Shown here: in pieces, positions 28,520-37,860 of the stretch
Numbering within the stretch: the first letter of the stretch is position 1
Layout: every line of letters starts with the position of its first letter
From: an uncultured Nitrosomonadaceae bacterium
Lineage (GTDB): Bacteria > Pseudomonadota > Gammaproteobacteria > Burkholderiales > Nitrosomonadaceae
Direction of reading: 5' to 3'
DNA length: 64,000 nt
NCBI GenBank assembly: GCA_943787405.1
Contig: CALSMH010000003.1
Span: 124,001-188,000 of the forward strand
Program-made: the position numbers and the translations under genes
The notes under the pieces: generated by a model
Databases searched by the model: none
The model's input: the letters and a program-made list of their open reading frames with translations, nothing else
Told to the model about the DNA's origin: nothing

Positions 28520-29476
28520 TTACCTAACAGGTAATGCAATAAAGGTTCCATCATTCTGCTTAGTAAGTTCCCGCATTAAAATAGCAAATCTATCTGTTGT
28601 ATATTGAGAAGGAAAACCAACAGCGTGAATCTTGGCTAAGCGCTTTCCATTCTTTTGAACCCTATTCTTCTTTGTAATATCGGCAATGACGCTATCATAA
28701 GAGCCACCGGTATAATCATCACCAAAGACGTAAATAGCGATTGTATGGCCTCTCTTTTTATATTTCCTCAAGGCTGTCAATACGCCCTCTACAGGGCTAC
28801 TATTAGATGCGCTCTGCCATCCTTTAAATAACTTCATCACACTTTTACGTCGAAATGGAACATCGGGAATCCATTTCCCGCTATAACCCGCAAGAATAGC
28901 TTTGCCCTGGTCATCCAAAATCTGGAATCCTTTTGCTTGAGGGTGAATAGTTAAGATATTAATTATTTGCTGTGTAACACGATCCCAAATAGCCCTCATG
29001 CTGCCAGATGTATCAACTACAAAAATTACATAATCACTATCTACTGGGATGCCACCCACTTCTTCATCACGAGGAGTATTGCTAGTAGAGGGTGAAATTG
29101 ATACTTTTTTTAGAGTAGATTGAACCAGAGAGAGTCCATCCAAATCCCCAGTCAGCTCTTTTTCTTCATTCTCTCTTGTACGCAGATTTTCTAAAGAAGC
29201 TTGCATTTTCCTACCTAAATTTCTACTATCTTCTAGCTTAATTTCATTCAGTTTTTTTCTCTGATCAATTTTTTTCGCTAAACTGCTTACCTGGGCTTTG
29301 AGCGCCAAGACCTGGCTCAACTGATCCTCAACTTGATCAACATTTAACTTAGGATCGTCTCTATCAGTATGAGAAATCAGTACCAGAAGAACTATAGCGC
29401 CGAACCCACAAGTTATAATATCTAGGAATGATAGGTTAAATATATCAAAATCTTTTTTCTTTATTTTCATGGCCAA
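28520..29476 (-). CDS. Membrane-anchored vWA protein with ExbD/TolR-like helix (second copy)
   Basis: A 318-residue protein. A basic N-terminus leads into one membrane helix, about 13-35, with the pattern NLSFLDIITCGFGAIVLLVL. The Asp at 19 is placed like the ion-binding Asp of ExbD/TolR/MotB. A charged coiled coil (about 45-110) follows, then a von Willebrand A domain from about 149 with MIDAS start DTSGS (D155) and GDDYTG later; the usual middle Thr is not obvious. By the helix orientation the vWA domain is in the periplasm. Its start overlaps the end of the other vWA gene by 10 bases, so the two are translationally coupled. It is the last gene of the operon. Function inferred, not known. 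Confidence 0.8.
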   Translation of the reverse strand: MAMKIKKKDFDIFNLSFLDIITCGFGAIVLLVLISHTDRDDPKLNVDQVEDQLSQVLALKAQVSSLAKKIDQRKKLNEIKLEDSRNLGRKMQASLENLRTRENEEKELTGDLDGLSLVQSTLKKVSISPSTSNTPRDEEVGGIPVDSDYVIFVVDTSGSMRAIWDRVTQQIINILTIHPQAKGFQILDDQGKAILAGYSGKWIPDVPFRRKSVMKLFKGWQSASNSSPVEGVLTALRKYKKRGHTIAIYVFGDDYTGGSYDSVIADITKKNRVQKNGKRLAKIHAVGFPSQYTTDRFAILMRELTKQNDGTFIALPVR

Positions 29477-30528
29477 TTCACAGCAGGACTAATAACCAGA
29501 CCACCTGTACTAGCTGCCCAACTCCAGTACTCATTTACAGCACTTGGATCACCTTCAATAGGCAACAAAATAACATTGACTTTGACCTCAGTAAGGCTAG
29601 CGTCTTTAACAGTCTGCCTAAATAACTTTACCCGACATTCACCTGAAATTGATTTAGAGCTTCCAAGTAGTGAACTGCACCCAGAAAAAGGATTTAAATG
29701 GGAATAATTTGATTCGCCAGTAGTAGGCAACCCATCTGTAATAATATAAATGTCAGTAGCGTTAAGTCTCGATACAGCTTGCAATCCTTTATGAAGATTA
29801 GTTGCACCAGCCGGGACAATGGAATCTAATTTTTCATAAAAACCATTAAGGATGCTATCAGTATTAACGCTAACCCATTCAGCTTTACCTAGAGAATGTA
29901 TGGAATTATTAAAAGCAAGTACGCTTAACTGACTCACTTTAGGGGTCCGTGCAAGAAGCCAACGAACTATTTTTTTAGTTCGAAGCCACTTAGGTCCCTG
30001 TTTTTTATTTTGAATAGAACTATTCTTTCTCCTAACTATATTTAATAATTTCTCGTCGGTCATTGAAGCACTACTATCGATCAATACTGCAATCCGGCGA
30101 CCTTCAACTTTTAGACCTATCAAATAATCCTCTTCACCGCCCCGGTCATCTTCTATAAGATCATCTTTGTTCGCTATTGGTCTTGTAGCAATGCTATTCT
30201 TCAGAGCAGTTAACTCTCCTCTTTTATTGTTAAGATTAGACTCTTTTTTTGAAAGCCTTTGTTTAATTTGTGCAAGTTTTTCTTTAAGTTTTCTTATTTT
30301 CTCAGTCTCAGACTGAGATGTATTGAGAAGTTGAACAAGTGTCTGCTGCAATTCTACCTGCTGCGATTCAAGCAACTGAATCTCAACAGTTAAATTGTTA
30401 GCCTCAGCATTAGAATCACTCACGTCATATTTGACTAGGATAAATACCAACACCATCGCGCCAAGTCCACATGACATTATGTCAAGGAATGCGAGATTAA
30501 ACCCTTCTGATCGACGCCGCCTTTTCAC
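29467..30528 (-). CDS. Membrane-anchored vWA protein with ExbD/TolR-like helix (first copy)
   Basis: A 353-residue protein: MKRRRRSEG, then one helix (about 11-33) with the pattern NLAFLDIMSCGLGAMVLVFI and Asp16, then a long coiled coil (about 40-112), then a vWA domain from about 144. The MIDAS is complete: DSSAS (D151-S155), a Thr in AGATNLHKG, and Asp in IITDGLPTTG. Two to three Cys occur late in the domain. The helix pattern is nearly the same as that of the next gene, but the two vWA domains differ strongly. It lies 11 bases after the MotA/ExbB-family gene. I infer it to be one of two B-type stator subunits. Confidence 0.82.
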   Translation of the reverse strand: MKRRRRSEGFNLAFLDIMSCGLGAMVLVFILVKYDVSDSNAEANNLTVEIQLLESQQVELQQTLVQLLNTSQSETEKIRKLKEKLAQIKQRLSKKESNLNNKRGELTALKNSIATRPIANKDDLIEDDRGGEEDYLIGLKVEGRRIAVLIDSSASMTDEKLLNIVRRKNSSIQNKKQGPKWLRTKKIVRWLLARTPKVSQLSVLAFNNSIHSLGKAEWVSVNTDSILNGFYEKLDSIVPAGATNLHKGLQAVSRLNATDIYIITDGLPTTGESNYSHLNPFSGCSSLLGSSKSISGECRVKLFRQTVKDASLTEVKVNVILLPIEGDPSAVNEYWSWAASTGGLVISPAVNWP

Positions 30529-30539
30529 AGATTAATTAT

Positions 30540-31295
30540 TTATTTAATACGAGCAAGTAAATACTGATCACAATAGGATTGGATATCCACGAGCTGTCCA
30601 TCCTGAAGGCGTTGCAATTGATGGAAAATAAACATGAGGAATATGCTAATTAACAAAGCCACGAGTGTTGAATTGAAAGCCACACCAAGACTATTTGTCA
30701 TGCCAGCAATATCGCCTGCAAGCGCCTTGTCTGCTAGAGAAAGCGCTTCACCAATGCCGCGTACTGTTCCAATAAAACCGATTGATGGTACGGCCCAGAT
30801 CAGATAACGAATCATCGAATTCTCAGCATCTTGGCGAATAGAAAGTGCTTCCACGCAACTTTCTATCGCATCAGATAAATTCTGTACATTCTTAGTTCCC
30901 GCATAACGCCACAAAGTAGTACGTAATGTCTGTATTAGAGGTGTTGAATTATGTGCAGCAGAGAGCTCCGTATCAAGCCTTTTAATAACCTCTTCAGCAT
31001 CAAAATTTCCTCCTTTTATTTCTTCGACCATGTCAACTGTGTAAAGATATTTGCTTCGCAAAATATTGCGGCACTTGTTTAGAATAAGGAAACTGCCCCA
31101 GAGCATCAAAATGATACAGAGTTCCTGTTCATAATCTTTGATGACAATTATAAGGTCACGGGGTGCAGATTGGCCTGCTTGTCTTGCTGCTTCAAGTATC
31201 AGATCGGCTTCAGGACGAACATAACCGATATATGCAAGATGAACGAAAATAGCTGAAATAATCAGCACCATGAAACTTTTAATAACTTCAGACAT
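30540..31295 (-). CDS. MotA/TolQ/ExbB family proton-channel protein
   Basis: A 251-residue inner-membrane protein with four predicted helices: about 8-26, 57-74, 160-182 and 203-226. The conserved MotA_ExbB region lies at the third and fourth helices: AVPSIGFIGTVRGIG with Pro170, then LGVAFNSTLVALLIS with the pore Thr210. A charged cytosolic stretch of about 85 residues separates helices 2 and 3, as in the family. It starts 1 base after the stop of the 48-residue gene and ends 11 bases before the first vWA gene. In relatives five such subunits surround a B-subunit pair and couple ion flow to rotation or force. Confidence 0.88.
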   Translation of the reverse strand: MSEVIKSFMVLIISAIFVHLAYIGYVRPEADLILEAARQAGQSAPRDLIIVIKDYEQELCIILMLWGSFLILNKCRNILRSKYLYTVDMVEEIKGGNFDAEEVIKRLDTELSAAHNSTPLIQTLRTTLWRYAGTKNVQNLSDAIESCVEALSIRQDAENSMIRYLIWAVPSIGFIGTVRGIGEALSLADKALAGDIAGMTNSLGVAFNSTLVALLISIFLMFIFHQLQRLQDGQLVDIQSYCDQYLLARIK

Positions 31296-31296
31296 A

Positions 31297-31443
31297 TTAA
31301 ATATCCACAGGAAAAGATGTAGGGGAATTTAGGCTAATAGTAGGCAAGACTGCATACACAGTTGCCACAGCAATAAAAAGAAACACCAATACTAGCGCCA
31401 ATTGGGTAATTCTTTTATGTAATAATCTTTTCAGCTTACTCAT
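31297..31443 (-). CDS. 48-residue single-helix protein of the vWA operon
   Basis: A small gene seen only by reading the reverse strand between its neighbours. The protein starts MSKLKRLLHKRITQ, a basic amphipathic start, then has one helix of about 19 hydrophobic residues (ALVLVFLFIAVATVYAVLP), then a short tail ending PTSFPVDI. Its ATG overlaps the stop of the PEGA gene by 8 bases and its TAA lies 1 base before the MotA-family ATG, which argues for translational coupling and for a real gene. It could be an accessory subunit of the channel complex. No family was recognised. Confidence 0.7.
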   Translation of the reverse strand: MSKLKRLLHKRITQLALVLVFLFIAVATVYAVLPTISLNSPTSFPVDI

Positions 31444-33463
31444 TTTTTCCTCCATAAAGATAACGACCCACTCTAAATCCTACGTCGTCTCGCCCAGTAG
31501 TCAATCCTTCTCTAAATGAAGGTCGAAGTGCGGTAACTGAACCAGAGCGAAAATTGGCTCCTTTTACCACATGTGACAGCCCATTTTCTGCCCCTAATGG
31601 ATTTTCTGAAGTTGTATCTTCTATTGGCGGCATAATTGAATAAATATCATGCACCCACTCACTAACATTACCAGCAATATCATAAAGACCAGATAGCTCT
31701 TTCTTAAAGCTACCCACAGGTGCAGCACTTACATAGCCATCATTATAATTAGGCACATAAAATTTCATTTGGCCTTTAGCACTTTCATCTGAAACATTTG
31801 CAACATTAGGAGGAATAACCATTTCATCTCCCCAAGAAAAAATAGTTTGTTTTGTTTTTCCTGCCTTGCGTGACAGCCATTCCCATTCTGCTTCACTAAG
31901 CAAACGATAACCATCAGTATTTCTATTAAATCCGTTCACTCTCTCATTAACAATTTTATAGAAAGGCTGGAGACCTTCATTCATGCTAAGCCAATTACAG
32001 AAAGATGCGGCCTCATTCCAATCAATCGAGGTTACAGGAACATCATCTGATCCTAAAGACTTTCTTAAACTTGGCTTAAATTTCCCATACTGGCCATTCG
32101 TTATCTCAAAAATACTAGCATAGAAGGATTTTGTTAATCTAATCTTCTTCTGAAATTCATTTGCACGCTGGCCTTTTTGGGAGCGCGGAGCACCCATTTT
32201 CATATACCCTGGATTTATAAATAATTTTAGCTTGATACCTTCCTTGTTAGTTAATTCTCTAGGTGACTCCTGTAATCGCGCCTGATATTCAGTTAGCAAC
32301 TTTACTGATACTTTTTGTACGAACTTTCCTGTTGGGTTTATAGTTTTTAATAGTGATCGATGTCCCTTTTTTTTGAAGAGAATCTTCTGAGTTACCGCCG
32401 GAAGAGTAACGGTTACAGAATTTTTTCCATAATTTTTATTATTAATCCAGATCGTTGCAGGAGGCGAAGAAGAAATTATTACTTTTCCAAATTCTGGTTT
32501 TAGCTGAAAAGATATTTCCCTAGCCTTACCTGATGTAAGTTGAATTTTTTTGGTACTCGGGTAATAGCCTTGTTTCATATAAATAAATTGATGTTCCTCA
32601 TTCGTGTTGAGGAAGAGCGGCCCCTTCGATAGACTACCATTTACAATAAGCCTTCCGCCTTTTGGAGTTAGTTTAGGAATAACTTTTGCCTTTATTCGTG
32701 CAAGCTGGTAATTACGTTTCACATTTGGCACAGTATGGGTAATCTCAAATTTATCGATTGAATCAACATAGTTGTCAGCTGTAACTCGCAAAGAATGCAC
32801 ACCACCATTCAGGTTACTTTCTAAAGGAGTCTTTCCAATCAGTTCCTCATTAAGGAAGACTTTAGCACCTTTAGGTCTAGTGAGAATATTGAGCCTGCCA
32901 TTAATCGGTTGCAAATCAACATGCAACTCTGTCTTCTTCTGTCGTTTAATTTCAACCGTCAAATCTTTAGGTAGAAAAAAAGGATTGCTAATATTAATTG
33001 TATAGATTCCTGCCTCTAACTCCAGATCGAGCATAGCAGAGCGCGTCGTATCACGATTGTTGATCTTCCAAACAGTCTCTAACAAATTGTCCTTATCTCC
33101 CACTATACTTATAACCAGATGCCCAGGTAATTCAGCTAATTCAAGTGAGAAATTTTTACCTAAATAAGCTGAACCAATATTTTCTGTGGCATCTTTGAAC
33201 CCAGGCGAAGATACATTAATAGTGGGATTTCCAGAGAGTGAGTACACTACATTTCCAATGTTAAAACTAAAATTATCTATTGCTCGTATTGTAGCCTGAT
33301 CACTTGCTTCCAATGGCATAACTTCTATTCTTGTTCCACGAGAATGAATAATCAACACAACTATAAGTAAAATAATGCTTGTCACCACTAAACCAGAAAG
33401 AATATATATTCTTTTCTGCTTATTTTGGGCCTTGTCTAATTTATTATTAAATTGGCTCATCAC
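31436..33463 (-). CDS. PEGA-repeat / SUMF1-domain membrane protein
   Basis: A 675-residue protein anchored by one N-terminal helix (about 19-39). Then come an extracytoplasmic region with several PEGA-like beta repeats (clear at about 188-255, 268-322 and 325-390, e.g. GKTPLESNLNGGVHSL) and a C-terminal SUMF1/FGE-type sulfatase-modifying domain (about 410-670) with MKMGAPRSQKGQ, YRLLSEAEWEWLSRKA, LYDIAGNVSEWVHD and GFRVGRY. The two C-terminal cysteines of active formylglycine-generating enzyme are absent: RPSFREG stands where a Cys pair is expected. So it is probably a binding domain. The start GTG overlaps the preceding gene by 17 bases. Confidence 0.85.
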   Translation of the reverse strand: MMSQFNNKLDKAQNKQKRIYILSGLVVTSIILLIVVLIIHSRGTRIEVMPLEASDQATIRAIDNFSFNIGNVVYSLSGNPTINVSSPGFKDATENIGSAYLGKNFSLELAELPGHLVISIVGDKDNLLETVWKINNRDTTRSAMLDLELEAGIYTINISNPFFLPKDLTVEIKRQKKTELHVDLQPINGRLNILTRPKGAKVFLNEELIGKTPLESNLNGGVHSLRVTADNYVDSIDKFEITHTVPNVKRNYQLARIKAKVIPKLTPKGGRLIVNGSLSKGPLFLNTNEEHQFIYMKQGYYPSTKKIQLTSGKAREISFQLKPEFGKVIISSSPPATIWINNKNYGKNSVTVTLPAVTQKILFKKKGHRSLLKTINPTGKFVQKVSVKLLTEYQARLQESPRELTNKEGIKLKLFINPGYMKMGAPRSQKGQRANEFQKKIRLTKSFYASIFEITNGQYGKFKPSLRKSLGSDDVPVTSIDWNEAASFCNWLSMNEGLQPFYKIVNERVNGFNRNTDGYRLLSEAEWEWLSRKAGKTKQTIFSWGDEMVIPPNVANVSDESAKGQMKFYVPNYNDGYVSAAPVGSFKKELSGLYDIAGNVSEWVHDIYSIMPPIEDTTSENPLGAENGLSHVVKGANFRSGSVTALRPSFREGLTTGRDDVGFRVGRYLYGGKNE

Positions 33464-34868
33464 AAATTATTTTGACAGAATAGCTCTGCTTATTATATGG
33501 AATTAAAACTTGCAATAATTTAGATTTAAAACCATTACGAGTTCCTTCGAAGGTGTAGTAACCTGGCTTCAACTCTATGATTTTATTATAAATAAACCCT
33601 AATTTCCCTATGCTGCGCACTTGAATATCAGTCTTATTATCAGACGTAACTATGACAGAAATAAGCTGATTAAATGTCGAGATCAGTTCATTAAGTTGTT
33701 TTATTTTTTTTCTAAGTCTAGAGCTATGTTTTGAGAAATGTGATGCATGCTTTAGAATTTTTTTTGTTTCCTTAAGAACGCCATTGTCTGTAAGGCGATA
33801 AGGGGATTTCTCATATTGAGCAAGAACTGACTGAAGCCTTAGAATTTCTTTAGCAAGCTTTATCCCTTTAATTGCCTCCTCATTACTAGGCATATTTTTT
33901 TTGGCTTTTTCAAATTTAGCCATTGCTCGTACCCAATTGTCCTCGCGAGTTGCCTGCTCTGCTTGCTTAAGTGCTTGCTCTGTTCTATAAGATTTTTCTT
34001 CTATTAATATCTGCTTCAGAAGAGCTTTTAGTTCCGGGCGCTCTGGATAAATTTTTTCTGCTTTCTGGTAGTGATACCTAGCTTTTTTCGTTTCATGATT
34101 CTCTATTTTAGAAAATCCTAATGAGATATGATTATCAAATTTATTGTTTCTAATCATTCTTTTTATTAATTCTAAACGCTCAGCTTCTACTGGTCGTTTA
34201 GAATTAATCTTTAGAATTTCCTCCAAAGAATTAGATTCATTTAACAGATTATTTTCTGCGCGAGCAATATTTGCCTTATTTAAAAACGGAAGAATCTGCT
34301 GAAGTTTTTCAATATTTTGCTGAAGCACTTGGGCTTTTGTAGATTGCGGGGCAACTACCAGAGCCTTTTCAATATAAAGCTTTGCCTCATGATAGAGATC
34401 ATCTGAGAAAAATGAAGTGGCTTTTTCTATATTATCTTTAAATATTTTATCTGACTCATCAATAACTTCTATTGCTTTAGTCGTTAGTGACTTAATGCCA
34501 GCTAGCGCATTAAAATAATCACCATTACTAAAATAGAGCATCATATACTCTTCCTGCTCATTAAGTTCAAGTAAAGTCTTCTGATTCCAATCTTTCAAAT
34601 TAGCTGCATAAAGACGGGGCTTCAACTCAGATTTGTATCTTTGAAATAGCTCTTTAAATTCCTCCCGAATTATTGATAGGTCTGATTCAGATATTTTTTT
34701 TATTTTAGATACTGAAGCAGTTGTATTTTTTGGTGTGGTAGATTCAAAATAAGGCAGGCTTAGTAGTATAAGAGCGCTTGCAACAATAATGATAAAAAAG
34801 CCAATTAATACTTGCAATATTAATTTAGATCTGCGCTGGCGTGCCTCTCCTAACTTTTTCTCAAGCAC
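33447..34868 (-). CDS. TPR-like coiled-coil membrane protein
   Basis: A 473-residue protein with GTG start. A basic N-terminal part is followed by one helix (about 20-42, IGFFIIIVASALILLSL), then a long alpha-helical region with TPR-like units (for instance EAKLYIEKALVVAPQSTKAQ and KARYHYQKAEKIYPERPELK) and a C-terminal beta-like part from about 405 (TSDNKTDIQVRSIGKL, then LKPGYYTFEGTRNGFKSK), which resembles a PEGA-type strand pattern. It is probably extracytoplasmic and membrane-tethered. It overlaps the next gene by 17 bases and follows the lipoprotein gene by 14. It is likely a structural partner of the PEGA/SUMF1 protein. Confidence 0.75.
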   Translation of the reverse strand: MLEKKLGEARQRRSKLILQVLIGFFIIIVASALILLSLPYFESTTPKNTTASVSKIKKISESDLSIIREEFKELFQRYKSELKPRLYAANLKDWNQKTLLELNEQEEYMMLYFSNGDYFNALAGIKSLTTKAIEVIDESDKIFKDNIEKATSFFSDDLYHEAKLYIEKALVVAPQSTKAQVLQQNIEKLQQILPFLNKANIARAENNLLNESNSLEEILKINSKRPVEAERLELIKRMIRNNKFDNHISLGFSKIENHETKKARYHYQKAEKIYPERPELKALLKQILIEEKSYRTEQALKQAEQATREDNWVRAMAKFEKAKKNMPSNEEAIKGIKLAKEILRLQSVLAQYEKSPYRLTDNGVLKETKKILKHASHFSKHSSRLRKKIKQLNELISTFNQLISVIVTSDNKTDIQVRSIGKLGFIYNKIIELKPGYYTFEGTRNGFKSKLLQVLIPYNKQSYSVKIICDEPI

Positions 34869-34882
34869 GTTATTTTTAATAT

Positions 34883-36127
34883 CTATAATTGAACATCAGG
34901 AGTCTTTTCTTCAGAATAAATTTTTTGCAAGAAAATACGCCACTGCATAAATTGCTCCTTAGCATTACCAGTCAGCTCAACACTTTTTTTATTAAATGCA
35001 ATAACCTTTGGGGCAAATTCAAGATCAACTGATTTTCCTAATTCATTTAGCGTGTCACGGTGTACATTTGCCTCCTCACTTGTTTTAAAACTTTGTCCAA
35101 TTAACATAGCACCCCCCACTCCACCAGCAAGTAATCCTAATGTTGAGGCAGTCTGGGTGGCAGCTGAGTTAGAACCTGCGCCTGCAACTGCTGCCAAAAC
35201 ACCAAGCCCTATAAGTGCAGCACCGCCAACAGCCTGAGCTAGCGCTTTACGATTTGCAGAACGCTTTGCCTTAATTTCCAGCAGACTTTGACTCTGCCAC
35301 ATCAGATAACTATCATTCATTTTTGAGGAGAAAGAAGCATAGTTGTTTTGTAGGCCATCAATAAACAGCTGATCCCGAACTCTAATAGCTTTCACACGCC
35401 GAAACATCGGATCCTGGTTACTTGGTTTACTTACAAGATTGAATTGATCCTCTTCCAATTCGATATATTGCATAAATTTACTATCCGAAAAATTGGCTCC
35501 AAACCTAATATCAGATAGATAATGGAGATCTTCTAATTCTTTAGACTCATGATCATCTAGTTCCTCAATAATTTTAGCTGCTATTTTCTCAAACAGAGGG
35601 TCATAAGAGTCCTTCCCTTTATTCCTGTAATTCTTATGAAAAGCATCAGACACCTCATGGTCAAAAGATTCATCCAACCATCTTCGATTACTGATATCAA
35701 TAACCTCTACAGCTACTTCAACCTCTTCACCATTTGATTCTTTAATCTGGCCAAGTATATATAAATCACCAGTAGCTGTTCTATCTGGGGTAACACGGAT
35801 TGAGCCAAATTGTTCTGTCTCATCTAGCTTTTCTTTGAGTTTATAAGCAAAACGGTTAGCTTCCGCCCTTCGTATCTCCGGCCAGATATTTTCATCTTCA
35901 TAATCTTGCTCTTGAGGTAGGCCCGGATCAAAAACTGGGATGATTACATCAAGCTTTGGATGAGGTTGAACCGAATTAGTTGCTTTTTGTTCAGAATATG
36001 ATGAAGATAATGAAGGGCCAACACCTGTCGATAGCTTTGTATTATTAGTGGCACATCCTGAAAACAGGAACACTTGGAGACTACAGACAGTCACAATTAA
36101 ACTGATATCAGATTTCTTAAAAAACAT
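34883..36127 (-). CDS. Large lipoprotein with glycine-rich hydrophobic segment
   Basis: A 414-residue precursor with a lipobox FSGC near residue 25 (VFLFSGCATNN), so probably attached to the outer membrane. A mixed alpha/beta domain follows, with a predicted curli-assembly CsgG-like pattern FGSIRVTPDRTATGDLYILG; this likeness is only my impression. At about 305-350 there is a Gly/Ala zipper (AVGGAALIGLGVLAAVAGAG, then LLAGGVGGAMLIG) that could span or insert in a membrane. An AGAGAG ribosome site precedes the ATG. It lies 15 bases after the secreted-protein gene and 14 before the TPR gene. Confidence 0.75.
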   Translation of the reverse strand: MFFKKSDISLIVTVCSLQVFLFSGCATNNTKLSTGVGPSLSSSYSEQKATNSVQPHPKLDVIIPVFDPGLPQEQDYEDENIWPEIRRAEANRFAYKLKEKLDETEQFGSIRVTPDRTATGDLYILGQIKESNGEEVEVAVEVIDISNRRWLDESFDHEVSDAFHKNYRNKGKDSYDPLFEKIAAKIIEELDDHESKELEDLHYLSDIRFGANFSDSKFMQYIELEEDQFNLVSKPSNQDPMFRRVKAIRVRDQLFIDGLQNNYASFSSKMNDSYLMWQSQSLLEIKAKRSANRKALAQAVGGAALIGLGVLAAVAGAGSNSAATQTASTLGLLAGGVGGAMLIGQSFKTSEEANVHRDTLNELGKSVDLEFAPKVIAFNKKSVELTGNAKEQFMQWRIFLQKIYSEEKTPDVQL

Positions 36128-36142
36128 AATTTCTCTCTATTA

Positions 36143-36727
36143 TTATTCGGTTAATCCTTTATATTTCCTATATTCATCCCATAGTAATTTTCTTTTTTTA
36201 GGGTCGCTTTCATTTTCAGCAGCACGTCGTATTTGGGCTGCGAGCGCGCTGTCATTATCTGCTGAAGGAATGTCATCAGGAAGCTTTCCGTTTGCAGTTG
36301 AAACGCTGCCCAGATAATTCCTATTTTTAATATCTGTAGTTTGCAAAGTCAAATTATTTTTTGATTCTTCTTGAACACTATCTTCAGCAGCAGGTAATTC
36401 GGTCCCGGACATAGCTGAATTAGCAACAGCCTCTCCTATATTCTTGCCATTTGAACTTTCAGCTGCCTCGTTAGCGCCACCAGAATTTTCGTTAGTATTA
36501 TTAGTTTCTTTTTTCTTGATTTCTTGATAACACAATTTATATTTATTTAATGCCCTAGAAAAAGACTCATCCATTTTGTTAATACGTTCACCCTTAGTTA
36601 GAGTTGGATCATCTGAATAATCTATTTGTATATTTGTGCAATCAACTGCCAACTCAAGGCTTTCTTGAGTATATGCCGTTGAATGTAAAAAAAATATAGA
36701 AAATATAGCGAGGATAAATTTTCTCAT
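36143..36727 (-). CDS. Secreted Asn/Ser/Glu-rich protein, first gene of the vWA operon
   Basis: I place the start at ATG 36727 because MRKFILAIFSIFFLHSTAYT is a signal peptide; the frame is open 7 codons further to a TTG at 36748. The mature part of about 175 residues starts with a Cys-containing segment (ELAVDCTNIQIDYSDDP) and then becomes low-complexity (Asn, Ser, Glu, Gly, Ala). It has a second Cys near residue 66 in YKLCYQEIKKKE, so a disulphide is possible. The end is charged (DPKKRKLLWDEYRKYKGL). No family was recognised. It is the first gene of the co-directional set; no promoter was convincingly seen upstream. Confidence 0.65.
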   Translation of the reverse strand: MRKFILAIFSIFFLHSTAYTQESLELAVDCTNIQIDYSDDPTLTKGERINKMDESFSRALNKYKLCYQEIKKKETNNTNENSGGANEAAESSNGKNIGEAVANSAMSGTELPAAEDSVQEESKNNLTLQTTDIKNRNYLGSVSTANGKLPDDIPSADNDSALAAQIRRAAENESDPKKRKLLWDEYRKYKGLTE

Positions 36728-36783
36728 GATCTCATAGATATTTGGCAACTAATTTTCTGTTTAATGGGCAGCCCTAGCCTCTC

Positions 36784-37329: not shown

Positions 37330-37860
37330 TTATTTATATTTACTTGCCTCATGTTTATCTGTCATGGCAAGGTATACCTCAGCACATAATTTTGCATCAA
37401 TTATTGCACCATGCTTAACACGTTCGGAATTATCTACCTGATAACGCTCGCATAAGGAATCAAGTTTATTACTTTTACCAGGGTGTAATTTCCTAGCAAT
37501 TCTCAGTGTGCAAATAATGGAACTACAGTATTCTTCTAAGGGGTGTAACCTTGCTAATCGCAATTCATAATTAATAAATCTAACATCAAACACAGCGTTA
37601 TGCGCTATAAGCTCAGCTCCAGCAATAAACTCCAAGAACTCTTTAGAAATGTCTTGAAATTTAGGCTTATTTTGAAGAAATTGGGTAGTTAATCCGTGAA
37701 CTGTTAATGCCATTGGTTCACTTTCACGCTCAGGGTTAAGGTAACAGTGAAAACGGTTTCCCGTTAATTTTCGATCAAGCATTTCTAGGGCGCCGATTTC
37801 AACAATACGGTTCTCGCCTCCCATGCCTGTGGTCTCTGTATCAAGAAAAACTTGGCGCAT
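37330..37860 (-). CDS. DnaQ-like 3'-5' exonuclease, short paralogue
   Basis: A 176-residue DEDDh exonuclease with the same motifs as the dnaQ at 4827: FLDTETTG (D7, E9), HNAVFDVRFINYE and HGAIIDAKL. Over the catalytic part the two proteins agree in well over half of positions by eye, and both begin MRQ(I/V)FLDTETTG. This copy stops where the polymerase-binding C-terminal extension of the other begins (176 versus 234 residues). It is intact, so it is not a pseudogene. It could proofread for another polymerase, trim DNA ends, or be a decaying duplicate. It lies 33 bases after a nuclease gene on the same strand. Confidence 0.88.
   Translation of the reverse strand: MRQVFLDTETTGMGGENRIVEIGALEMLDRKLTGNRFHCYLNPERESEPMALTVHGLTTQFLQNKPKFQDISKEFLEFIAGAELIAHNAVFDVRFINYELRLARLHPLEEYCSSIICTLRIARKLHPGKSNKLDSLCERYQVDNSERVKHGAIIDAKLCAEVYLAMTDKHEASKYK

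Follow-up and report, generated by a model that had tools for sequence, protein, structure and literature searches.

Relation to Described Ion-driven Systems

To our knowledge, ion motors of the 5:2 type do only a few jobs, namely those of flagella, the Ton and Tol systems, gliding and type IX secretion (T9SS), and Zorya. We analysed a stretch of 64,000 nucleotides (hereafter the window) from an uncultured Nitrosomonadaceae bacterium (contig CALSMH010000003.1, positions 124,001 to 188,000), which carries at positions 28520-36748 an operon of eight genes, g1 to g8, encoding a MotA/TolQ/ExbB-type channel, two membrane-anchored vWA proteins and a series of envelope proteins.

The closest description in print is found in section 8 of a recent survey (PMC12204202; Mol Biol Evol 2025; Fig. 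4, c and d), which reports that genes for vWA proteins tethered by a transmembrane (TM) helix co-occur with tolQ homologues and without tolR or exbD. The tolQ-linked vWA genes described there are mostly heterologous pairs with a proton-binding Asp in the pore helix; the family is mostly found in Proteobacteria and Verrucomicrobia, and insertion of the paired proteins into a TolQ-like pentamer is inferred there from AlphaFold3 models. For the paired family, the text and legend of that section name no PEGA/FGE protein, no lipoprotein, no secreted protein and no small peptide as a partner, and they mention a TPR gene solely for the first, different vWA family of the survey. Our operon resembles the paired family (TolQ plus paired TPH-vWA proteins) in that its channel adjoins two TM-anchored vWA proteins that form a heterologous pair and bear an Asp, and in having no TolR or ExbD; this likeness, to the family of the survey's Idiomarina query, is one of description. 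The vWA pair beside a tolQ-like gene was observed in the window and at other loci, while the absence of tolR and exbD was checked among the products of the window, the seven large ones containing no TolR/ExbD or OmpA domain according to Pfam. Section 8 assigns neither a system name nor a function to the paired family; the motor core is nevertheless already in print, and "unrecognised", as the operon was called in a preliminary description made from the letters of the window, was too strong a word. What we add is the full module, an extended gammaproteobacterial version of it, an FGE domain without catalytic cysteines in g5, and the C-terminal peptide of g4. The full gene set, the docking-type peptide and the extended version were not found in print among the matches listed in the literature searched, which excludes subscription papers and preprints, and a term search of PMC9389320 and PMC12505986 returned no mention of vWA or PEGA.

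The preliminary description had also held that the set was unlike the Mot, Tol-Pal, Exb and Zorya systems, and the domain, NCBIfam and PADLOC results indeed fit none of them. With the MotAB/PomAB stator the operon shares a MotA-type channel and a partner with a TM Asp, but where the stator has an OmpA-type peptidoglycan-binding domain, the operon has vWA heads. Tol-Pal is comparable as an inner-membrane motor driven by the proton-motive force (PMF), with periplasmic and lipoprotein partners; it differs in that no TolA, TolR, TolB or Pal domain was found among the seven large operon products (Pfam), the TolB of the host being encoded separately. Unlike ExbBD-TonB, the operon products comprise no ExbD periplasmic domain and no TonB. 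GldKLMN of T9SS and gliding is, similarly, a motor operon with an FGE-fold protein, but in our operon the FGE domain sits on a PEGA-bearing, membrane-anchored protein without a lipobox, the match to GldK reaches 77 bits for a cut-off of 350, and GldL, GldM and GldN are unmatched.

The Channel and the Two vWA Proteins

The block consists of eight densely packed open reading frames (ORFs, each taken from the first start codon after a stop), all on the minus strand and read in the order g8, g7, g6, g5, g4, g3, g2, g1. The gaps are of 1, 11, 14 and 15 bases and the overlaps of 10, 17 and 20 bases, the last becoming 8 if g4 starts at its second Met. Hydropathy indicated an N-terminal membrane segment in g1, g2, g4, g5 and g6, and g7 has a lipobox. 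The eight packed leftward genes and the products attributed to them in the preliminary description were thus confirmed by ORFs, domains and hydropathy.

The channel protein g3 (30540..31295), the ring subunit, matched MotA_ExbB (PF01618) with 47.7 bits for a cut-off of 22.9. Motor residues were compared in relatives picked for diversity (30 rows for g3, 28 for g1 and 29 for g2). T177 and T210 of g3, presumably the pore threonines of the MotA/TolQ/ExbB superfamily, were unvaried in all 30 channel rows. The vWA proteins g1 (28520..29476) and g2 (29467..30528) each have a single N-terminal TM segment, a coiled coil and a periplasmic vWA domain with a metal site. The TM helix bears an Asp that was present in every row, Asp19 in g1 (28/28) and Asp16 in g2 (29/29). 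The metal-site residues were equally well kept: D155, S157, S159, S226 and D253 of g1 were each found in 28/28 rows, and D151, S153, S155 and D265 of g2 each in 29/29, while T243 of g2 was found in 27/29 and replaced by Ser in the other two. The two proteins are only weakly alike (18-20%) and represent two distinct families. Compared with the Protein Data Bank (PDB), the g1 profile gave coiled-coil matches and the g2 profile matched 8s05_A (E 0.0032) over part of the vWA region. The protein g2 ends in Trp-Pro, which are the last two residues in about 73 of 78 loci (73/78 for each position).

The set therefore combines several traits of the MotA/TolQ/ExbB superfamily, namely a PF01618 channel, invariant channel threonines and a single-TM partner with an Asp. 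The residues of the channel and of the vWA proteins fit a MotA/ExbB-type ring in which a vWA heterodimer would replace ExbD, TolR or MotB. The metal sites kept in both vWA domains would also suit a surface-adhesion or gliding machine, in which the vWA heads bind an outer-membrane or surface ligand, like the vWA protein CglB in Myxococcus gliding. We know of no gliders among the named hosts; moreover, the N-terminal membrane helices would hold the vWA heads in the periplasm, and no recurring adhesin was noticed beside the operon when neighbouring genes were clustered, no dedicated test having been made. We consider such a function unlikely, even if section 8 of PMC12204202 proposes that the first of its vWA transducer families, a related one, may function in gliding.

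The host genome contains four further MotA_ExbB matches and a TolB of its own, and the g1-g8 operon is therefore an additional machine. Two of these MotA_ExbB matches, on contigs C4 and C6 of the window's genome, score identically and are possibly an assembly duplicate.

Conservation of the Gene Set

In the genus of the window's bacterium, g3 was found in 6 of 8 genomes (the window's included), and in one out of 53 further genomes from the same family and order. The locus of the latter genome (G046, locus L013) has g8, g7, g6, g5, g3, g2 and g1 in the same order, with 22-40% identity to the window, and between g5 and g3 a g4-like ORF ending in F-P-V-D-I. When named genomes were scanned with the channel alignment, at least 565 stretches proved to encode a g3 relative, and the best 80 were kept. 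To judge by their titles, these 80 loci belong to Alpha-, Beta-, Gamma- and Zetaproteobacteria, to groups of sulfate reducers since reassigned to Thermodesulfobacteriota, and to one bin labelled Acidimicrobiaceae.

The partner genes beside the channel were found with iterated profiles. Room on both sides made 48 of the 80 loci evaluable (Alpha- and Gammaproteobacteria, unclassified proteobacterial bins and two Desulfobacteraceae), and 43 of these contained all seven large genes in a single order on a single strand. As for the exceptions, L044 has the seven genes in two blocks on opposite strands, g8 was not detected in L054, and L088, L094 and L098 have an insert of about 4.7 kb between g5 and g3, with g7 truncated by the edge of the locus and g8 consequently out of view. 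The gene for g2 was present in 48/48 evaluable loci and that for g1 in 45/48. Because order and content recur across other genera and phyla, the eight-gene set is more than a chance assembly.

Co-occurrence was determined in 397 genomes drawn evenly from Pseudomonadota, including that of the window. The g7 profile (E 1e-6) matched 12 of them and the g3 profile (E 1e-20) the identical 12, comprising the window's genome and seven genomes from one genus (g131). The g2 profile matched 11 of these 12; in the remaining one (G182) the vWA genes are out of view because the contig, of 4672 bases, starts inside g7 and stops inside g3. A single g2-profile match was found outside the 12 (G074; E 2.5e-7, 86 profile positions in a 727-aa frame), and it looks like a generic vWA protein. 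With this one weak match set apart, the channel and vWA genes never occurred without the lipoprotein gene; since g3 and g7 lie in the same 12 genomes, the regular separation of the motor genes from their partners that the preliminary description had named as speaking against it was not encountered in this sample. The eight genes are a real conserved unit.

With ZorAB of Zorya, the operon shares a MotA-type channel outside motility, and g3 matched ZorA weakly (PADLOC, E 0.0015; NCBIfam, E 0.093), which could point to a Zorya-related anti-phage defence system. These matches are, however, far below cut-off or partial, and no ZorB, ZorC, ZorD, nuclease or helicase was found among the operon products, defence neighbours of the 80 loci not having been searched for. 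Furthermore, a search of 72,556 plasmid records with g3 of the window gave no match at E 1e-10, by which carriage on plasmids was also rejected. As the similarity to ZorA is weak only, we rejected a role in defence, which appears very unlikely to us.

A Predicted Trans-envelope Motor

We propose, with a probability of about 0.68, that the operon encodes a self-contained motor acting across the envelope, driven by protons (or sodium), with the vWA heterodimer as its axle. The basis for this, computed here, consists of the domains, the conserved residues, the topology indicated by hydropathy and the conserved gene set. In such a motor g3 would form a MotA/TolQ/ExbB-type ring in the inner membrane, and g1 and g2 would take the place of ExbD, TolR or MotB, their single acidic-residue helices sitting as a heterodimer in the pore of the ring and their coiled coils holding the two dissimilar vWA heads out in the periplasm. 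The g1-g2 pair would be turned or stroked by ions flowing through the ring; the stoichiometry (of the 5:2 type), the heterodimer and the ion flow are predicted. The proteins g5 and g6 would serve as periplasmic scaffolds tethered to the inner membrane, whereas g7, a lipoprotein probably located in the outer membrane, and g8, a putative periplasmic partner, would receive the force. The small protein g4 would present a fixed C-terminal peptide in the periplasm, to be read by one of the partners. The transfer of force, the location of g7 and g8 and the role of g4 are all predictions. The ion-powered machine across the envelope suggested in the preliminary description is thus the best reading, the channel threonines and the TM Asp residues being invariant in the rows examined, but the role in surface assembly, adhesion or defence that was attached to it was a guess.

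Several observations argue against this proposal. VWA_2 was below the Pfam cut-off in both g1 (E 0.0026) and g2 (E 3.3e-5); we nevertheless take both to be vWA proteins, since 28 and 29 relatives, respectively, keep the residues of the metal site. The g3 profile matched a MotA chain of the PDB weakly (E 0.96). In L088, L094 and L098, g1 was not detected within the stretch fetched, and the g1-g2 pair is therefore not universal. The channel without the lipoprotein gene was met in none of the 397 genomes, but a lone g3-like gene (L179:7488-8333) was found on a 9.5-kb contig of a viral collection, with no other module gene detectable on it and with Pfam-identified neighbours for a phage tail sheath, baseplate J, baseplate V/spike and a Na+/H+ antiporter. 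Finally, we know of no phenotype for the module.

Compact and Extended Versions of the Module

A tree of 73 channels separated two groups, both on branches with 100/100 support (midpoint root; bootstrap not fully settled). The compact group has 42 rows and includes the channel of the window. The second group has 31 rows: L013, plus 30 loci that are either gammaproteobacterial or from unclassified Proteobacteria. All of these 30 loci have an extra gene after g3, which was seen in 35 of the 80 named loci (among L060-L099), and in neither L013 nor any compact locus, the window included. The extended version also has two more small proteins after g1 (25/80 and 24/80 loci), which are lipoprotein-like, and a TPR gene before g8 (24/80 loci), several loci in these counts being cut by contig ends. 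Of 19 members of the extra protein family, one has a C-terminal FHA domain (E 7e-10), and the profile of the protein matched FHA structures (E 0.003) and, weakly, the Hsp70-like Ssz1 (E 0.063). That the extra protein is Hsp70/actin-like with an added FHA domain is a lead only.

An FHA-type domain in this position, together with a weak, below-cut-off FHA match (E 0.0033) in the first part of the L013 g5, would suit a signalling or proprioceptive complex, in which the channel and vWA heads report envelope tension instead of doing work. The compact version, including that of the window, is devoid of the FHA-bearing extra gene, however, and the motor residues are strictly conserved, so that we regard a purely sensory function as improbable.

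The nearest channels to that of the window outside its genus belong to three Thermodesulfobacteriota and one gammaproteobacterial bin (7-row set, 100/99). The block may thus have passed from one phylum to another, although caution is due because these are metagenome bins.

The Envelope Partners g5 to g8

The membrane-anchored protein g5 (31436..33463) contains three PEGA stretches (PF08308, E 3e-26) and an FGE/SUMF1 fold (FGE-sulfatase, PF03781, E 1.4e-32), both above cut-off. At the aligned positions 640 and 645, which we take to be those of the catalytic cysteines of formylglycine-generating enzymes, Cys was found in 0 of 86 rows. We therefore rejected the idea that g5 is an active formylglycine enzyme, all 86 rows being without Cys at both positions; its FGE domain probably serves for binding or as a scaffold. 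The PEGA/FGE protein of L013 (L013:10005-12356) begins with a region resembling FHA (E 0.0033, below cut-off), which g5 of the window does not have.

Next to it, g6 (33447..34868) is membrane-anchored and combines TPR repeats with a small domain at its C-terminus; TPR_2 was below cut-off in the window (E 8.5e-5) and above it in the relative L076. The lipoprotein g7 (34883..36127) has the lipobox FSGC from residue 22 and a glycine-rich hydrophobic segment at 299-317, and no Pfam family above cut-off. With hhalign, full-length g7 gave CsgG at 88.8% and TolB at 0.1%, while trimmed g7 gave CsgG at 1.8% and TolB-N at 3.0%, these having the best two E-values of 11 comparisons. The identity of g7 with TolB was rejected in view of these values (0.1% full length, 3.0% trimmed), and we do not claim that it is a CsgG, because the 88.8% needs the signal-peptide region and falls to 1.8% once this is trimmed. 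The N-terminal domain of g7 is possibly CsgG/TolB-N like. Against the PDB, the g7 profile gave only an unrelated chain at E 1.4. The last of these proteins, g8 (36143..36748), is probably secreted or periplasmic, with a low-complexity middle and a C-terminal stretch similar in relatives. It matched no Pfam family above cut-off and none in NCBIfam, its hydropathy showed no segment above threshold (the signal peptide being a reading of the sequence by eye), and its family profile matched in 63 of 86 loci.

The best NCBIfam model for g5 was GldK, of the T9SS motor (77 bits, E 1.7e-21). Together with the lack of Cys at the catalytic positions and the two lipoprotein-like proteins added in the extended version, this match would agree with a narrower functional version of the proposal, in which the motor works like Tol-Pal or T9SS (GldKLMN): it would pull or cycle outer-membrane lipoproteins for the upkeep or remodelling of the envelope, or energise the export of surface proteins, the FGE protein being a GldK-like ring piece. 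The GldK match is, however, far under the cut-off of 350, GldL, GldM, GldN, TolA, TolB and Pal are unmatched among the products of the window, and no further family was fixed beside the compact loci among the 40 largest BLAST neighbour clusters, whose functions were not assigned. We regard this narrower version as possible, with less than even confidence.

The Small Protein g4

The protein g4 (31297..31455) has 52 residues, an N-terminal hydrophobic segment and the C-terminus F-P-V-D-I. Of 83 loci examined, 82 could be judged (L069 is without g5), and all 82 had, between g5 and g3 and on the same strand, an ORF ending in [FWM]-P-x-[DN]-[IM] at its extreme C-terminus. The Pro was found in 82/82 of these tails; the last residue was Ile in 80 and Met in 2, and the penultimate one Asp in 79 and Asn in 3. 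This loose expression, which had been broadened after inspection of the tails missed by a stricter form, terminates 85 of 19,874 ORFs in 86 loci, all 85 lying between g5 and g3. The stricter form, F-[PA]-V-D-I, was found in 65/79 loci and terminates 65 of 19,019 ORFs. Many of the loci are related, and these counts are thus not independent. The tail is Y-P-V-D-I in a further genome (L182), which indicates that its first position is not strict. Outside the tail, length and sequence of g4 vary among loci.

In the host genome, the DNA pattern for F-P-x-D-I-stop was found only in g4, a reversed control pattern also giving one match; other host proteins with this C-terminal peptide, which might have been clients, were accordingly rejected. 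A tail of the g4 type, W-P-T-D-I, is present in L094 and L098. In another further genome (L180), g3 lies behind g1 instead of before g2, and an F-P-A-D-I peptide still directly follows g5.

With its flexible tether and its fixed, free C-terminal end, g4 may be a docking peptide. As a guess, a vWA metal site could be the reader of this acidic end. Carried further, the PMF-driven machine with its vWA heterodimer axle could be engaged by g4 as a dedicated short peptide, anchored in the membrane or secreted, the free carboxylate of P-x-D-I acting as an acidic ligand that docks on the metal site of one vWA head; such docking would be clutch-like, by analogy with the binding of ligands to integrins, but in the periplasm. 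We offer this elaboration tentatively and consider it rather doubtful.

Chromosomal Setting

Ordinary chromosome genes border the block: on one side those for an Amidase_2 (AmpD-like) protein and an ABC-type ATPase, on the other those for an exonuclease and a homologue of staphylococcal nuclease. Scans for promoters and terminators gave no more than the level of shuffled sequences. In two genomes of the same genus without a g3 match (G003 and G006), the AmpD-side flank is retained and the genes that follow are different, a pattern that fits gain or loss of the block. The exonuclease gene adjoining the operon (37330-37860) is a second copy, the other one being at G000:C3:128827-129345; when seven other genomes of the genus were searched, a close relative of the operon-side copy was present in G001 alone.

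Significance

As a conserved, self-contained module of eight genes with defined partners, the operon turns the motif of the 2025 survey into a whole unit that can be deleted, purified and imaged. Through the conserved C-terminal peptide of g4, the connection between the motor and its load becomes directly accessible to experiment.

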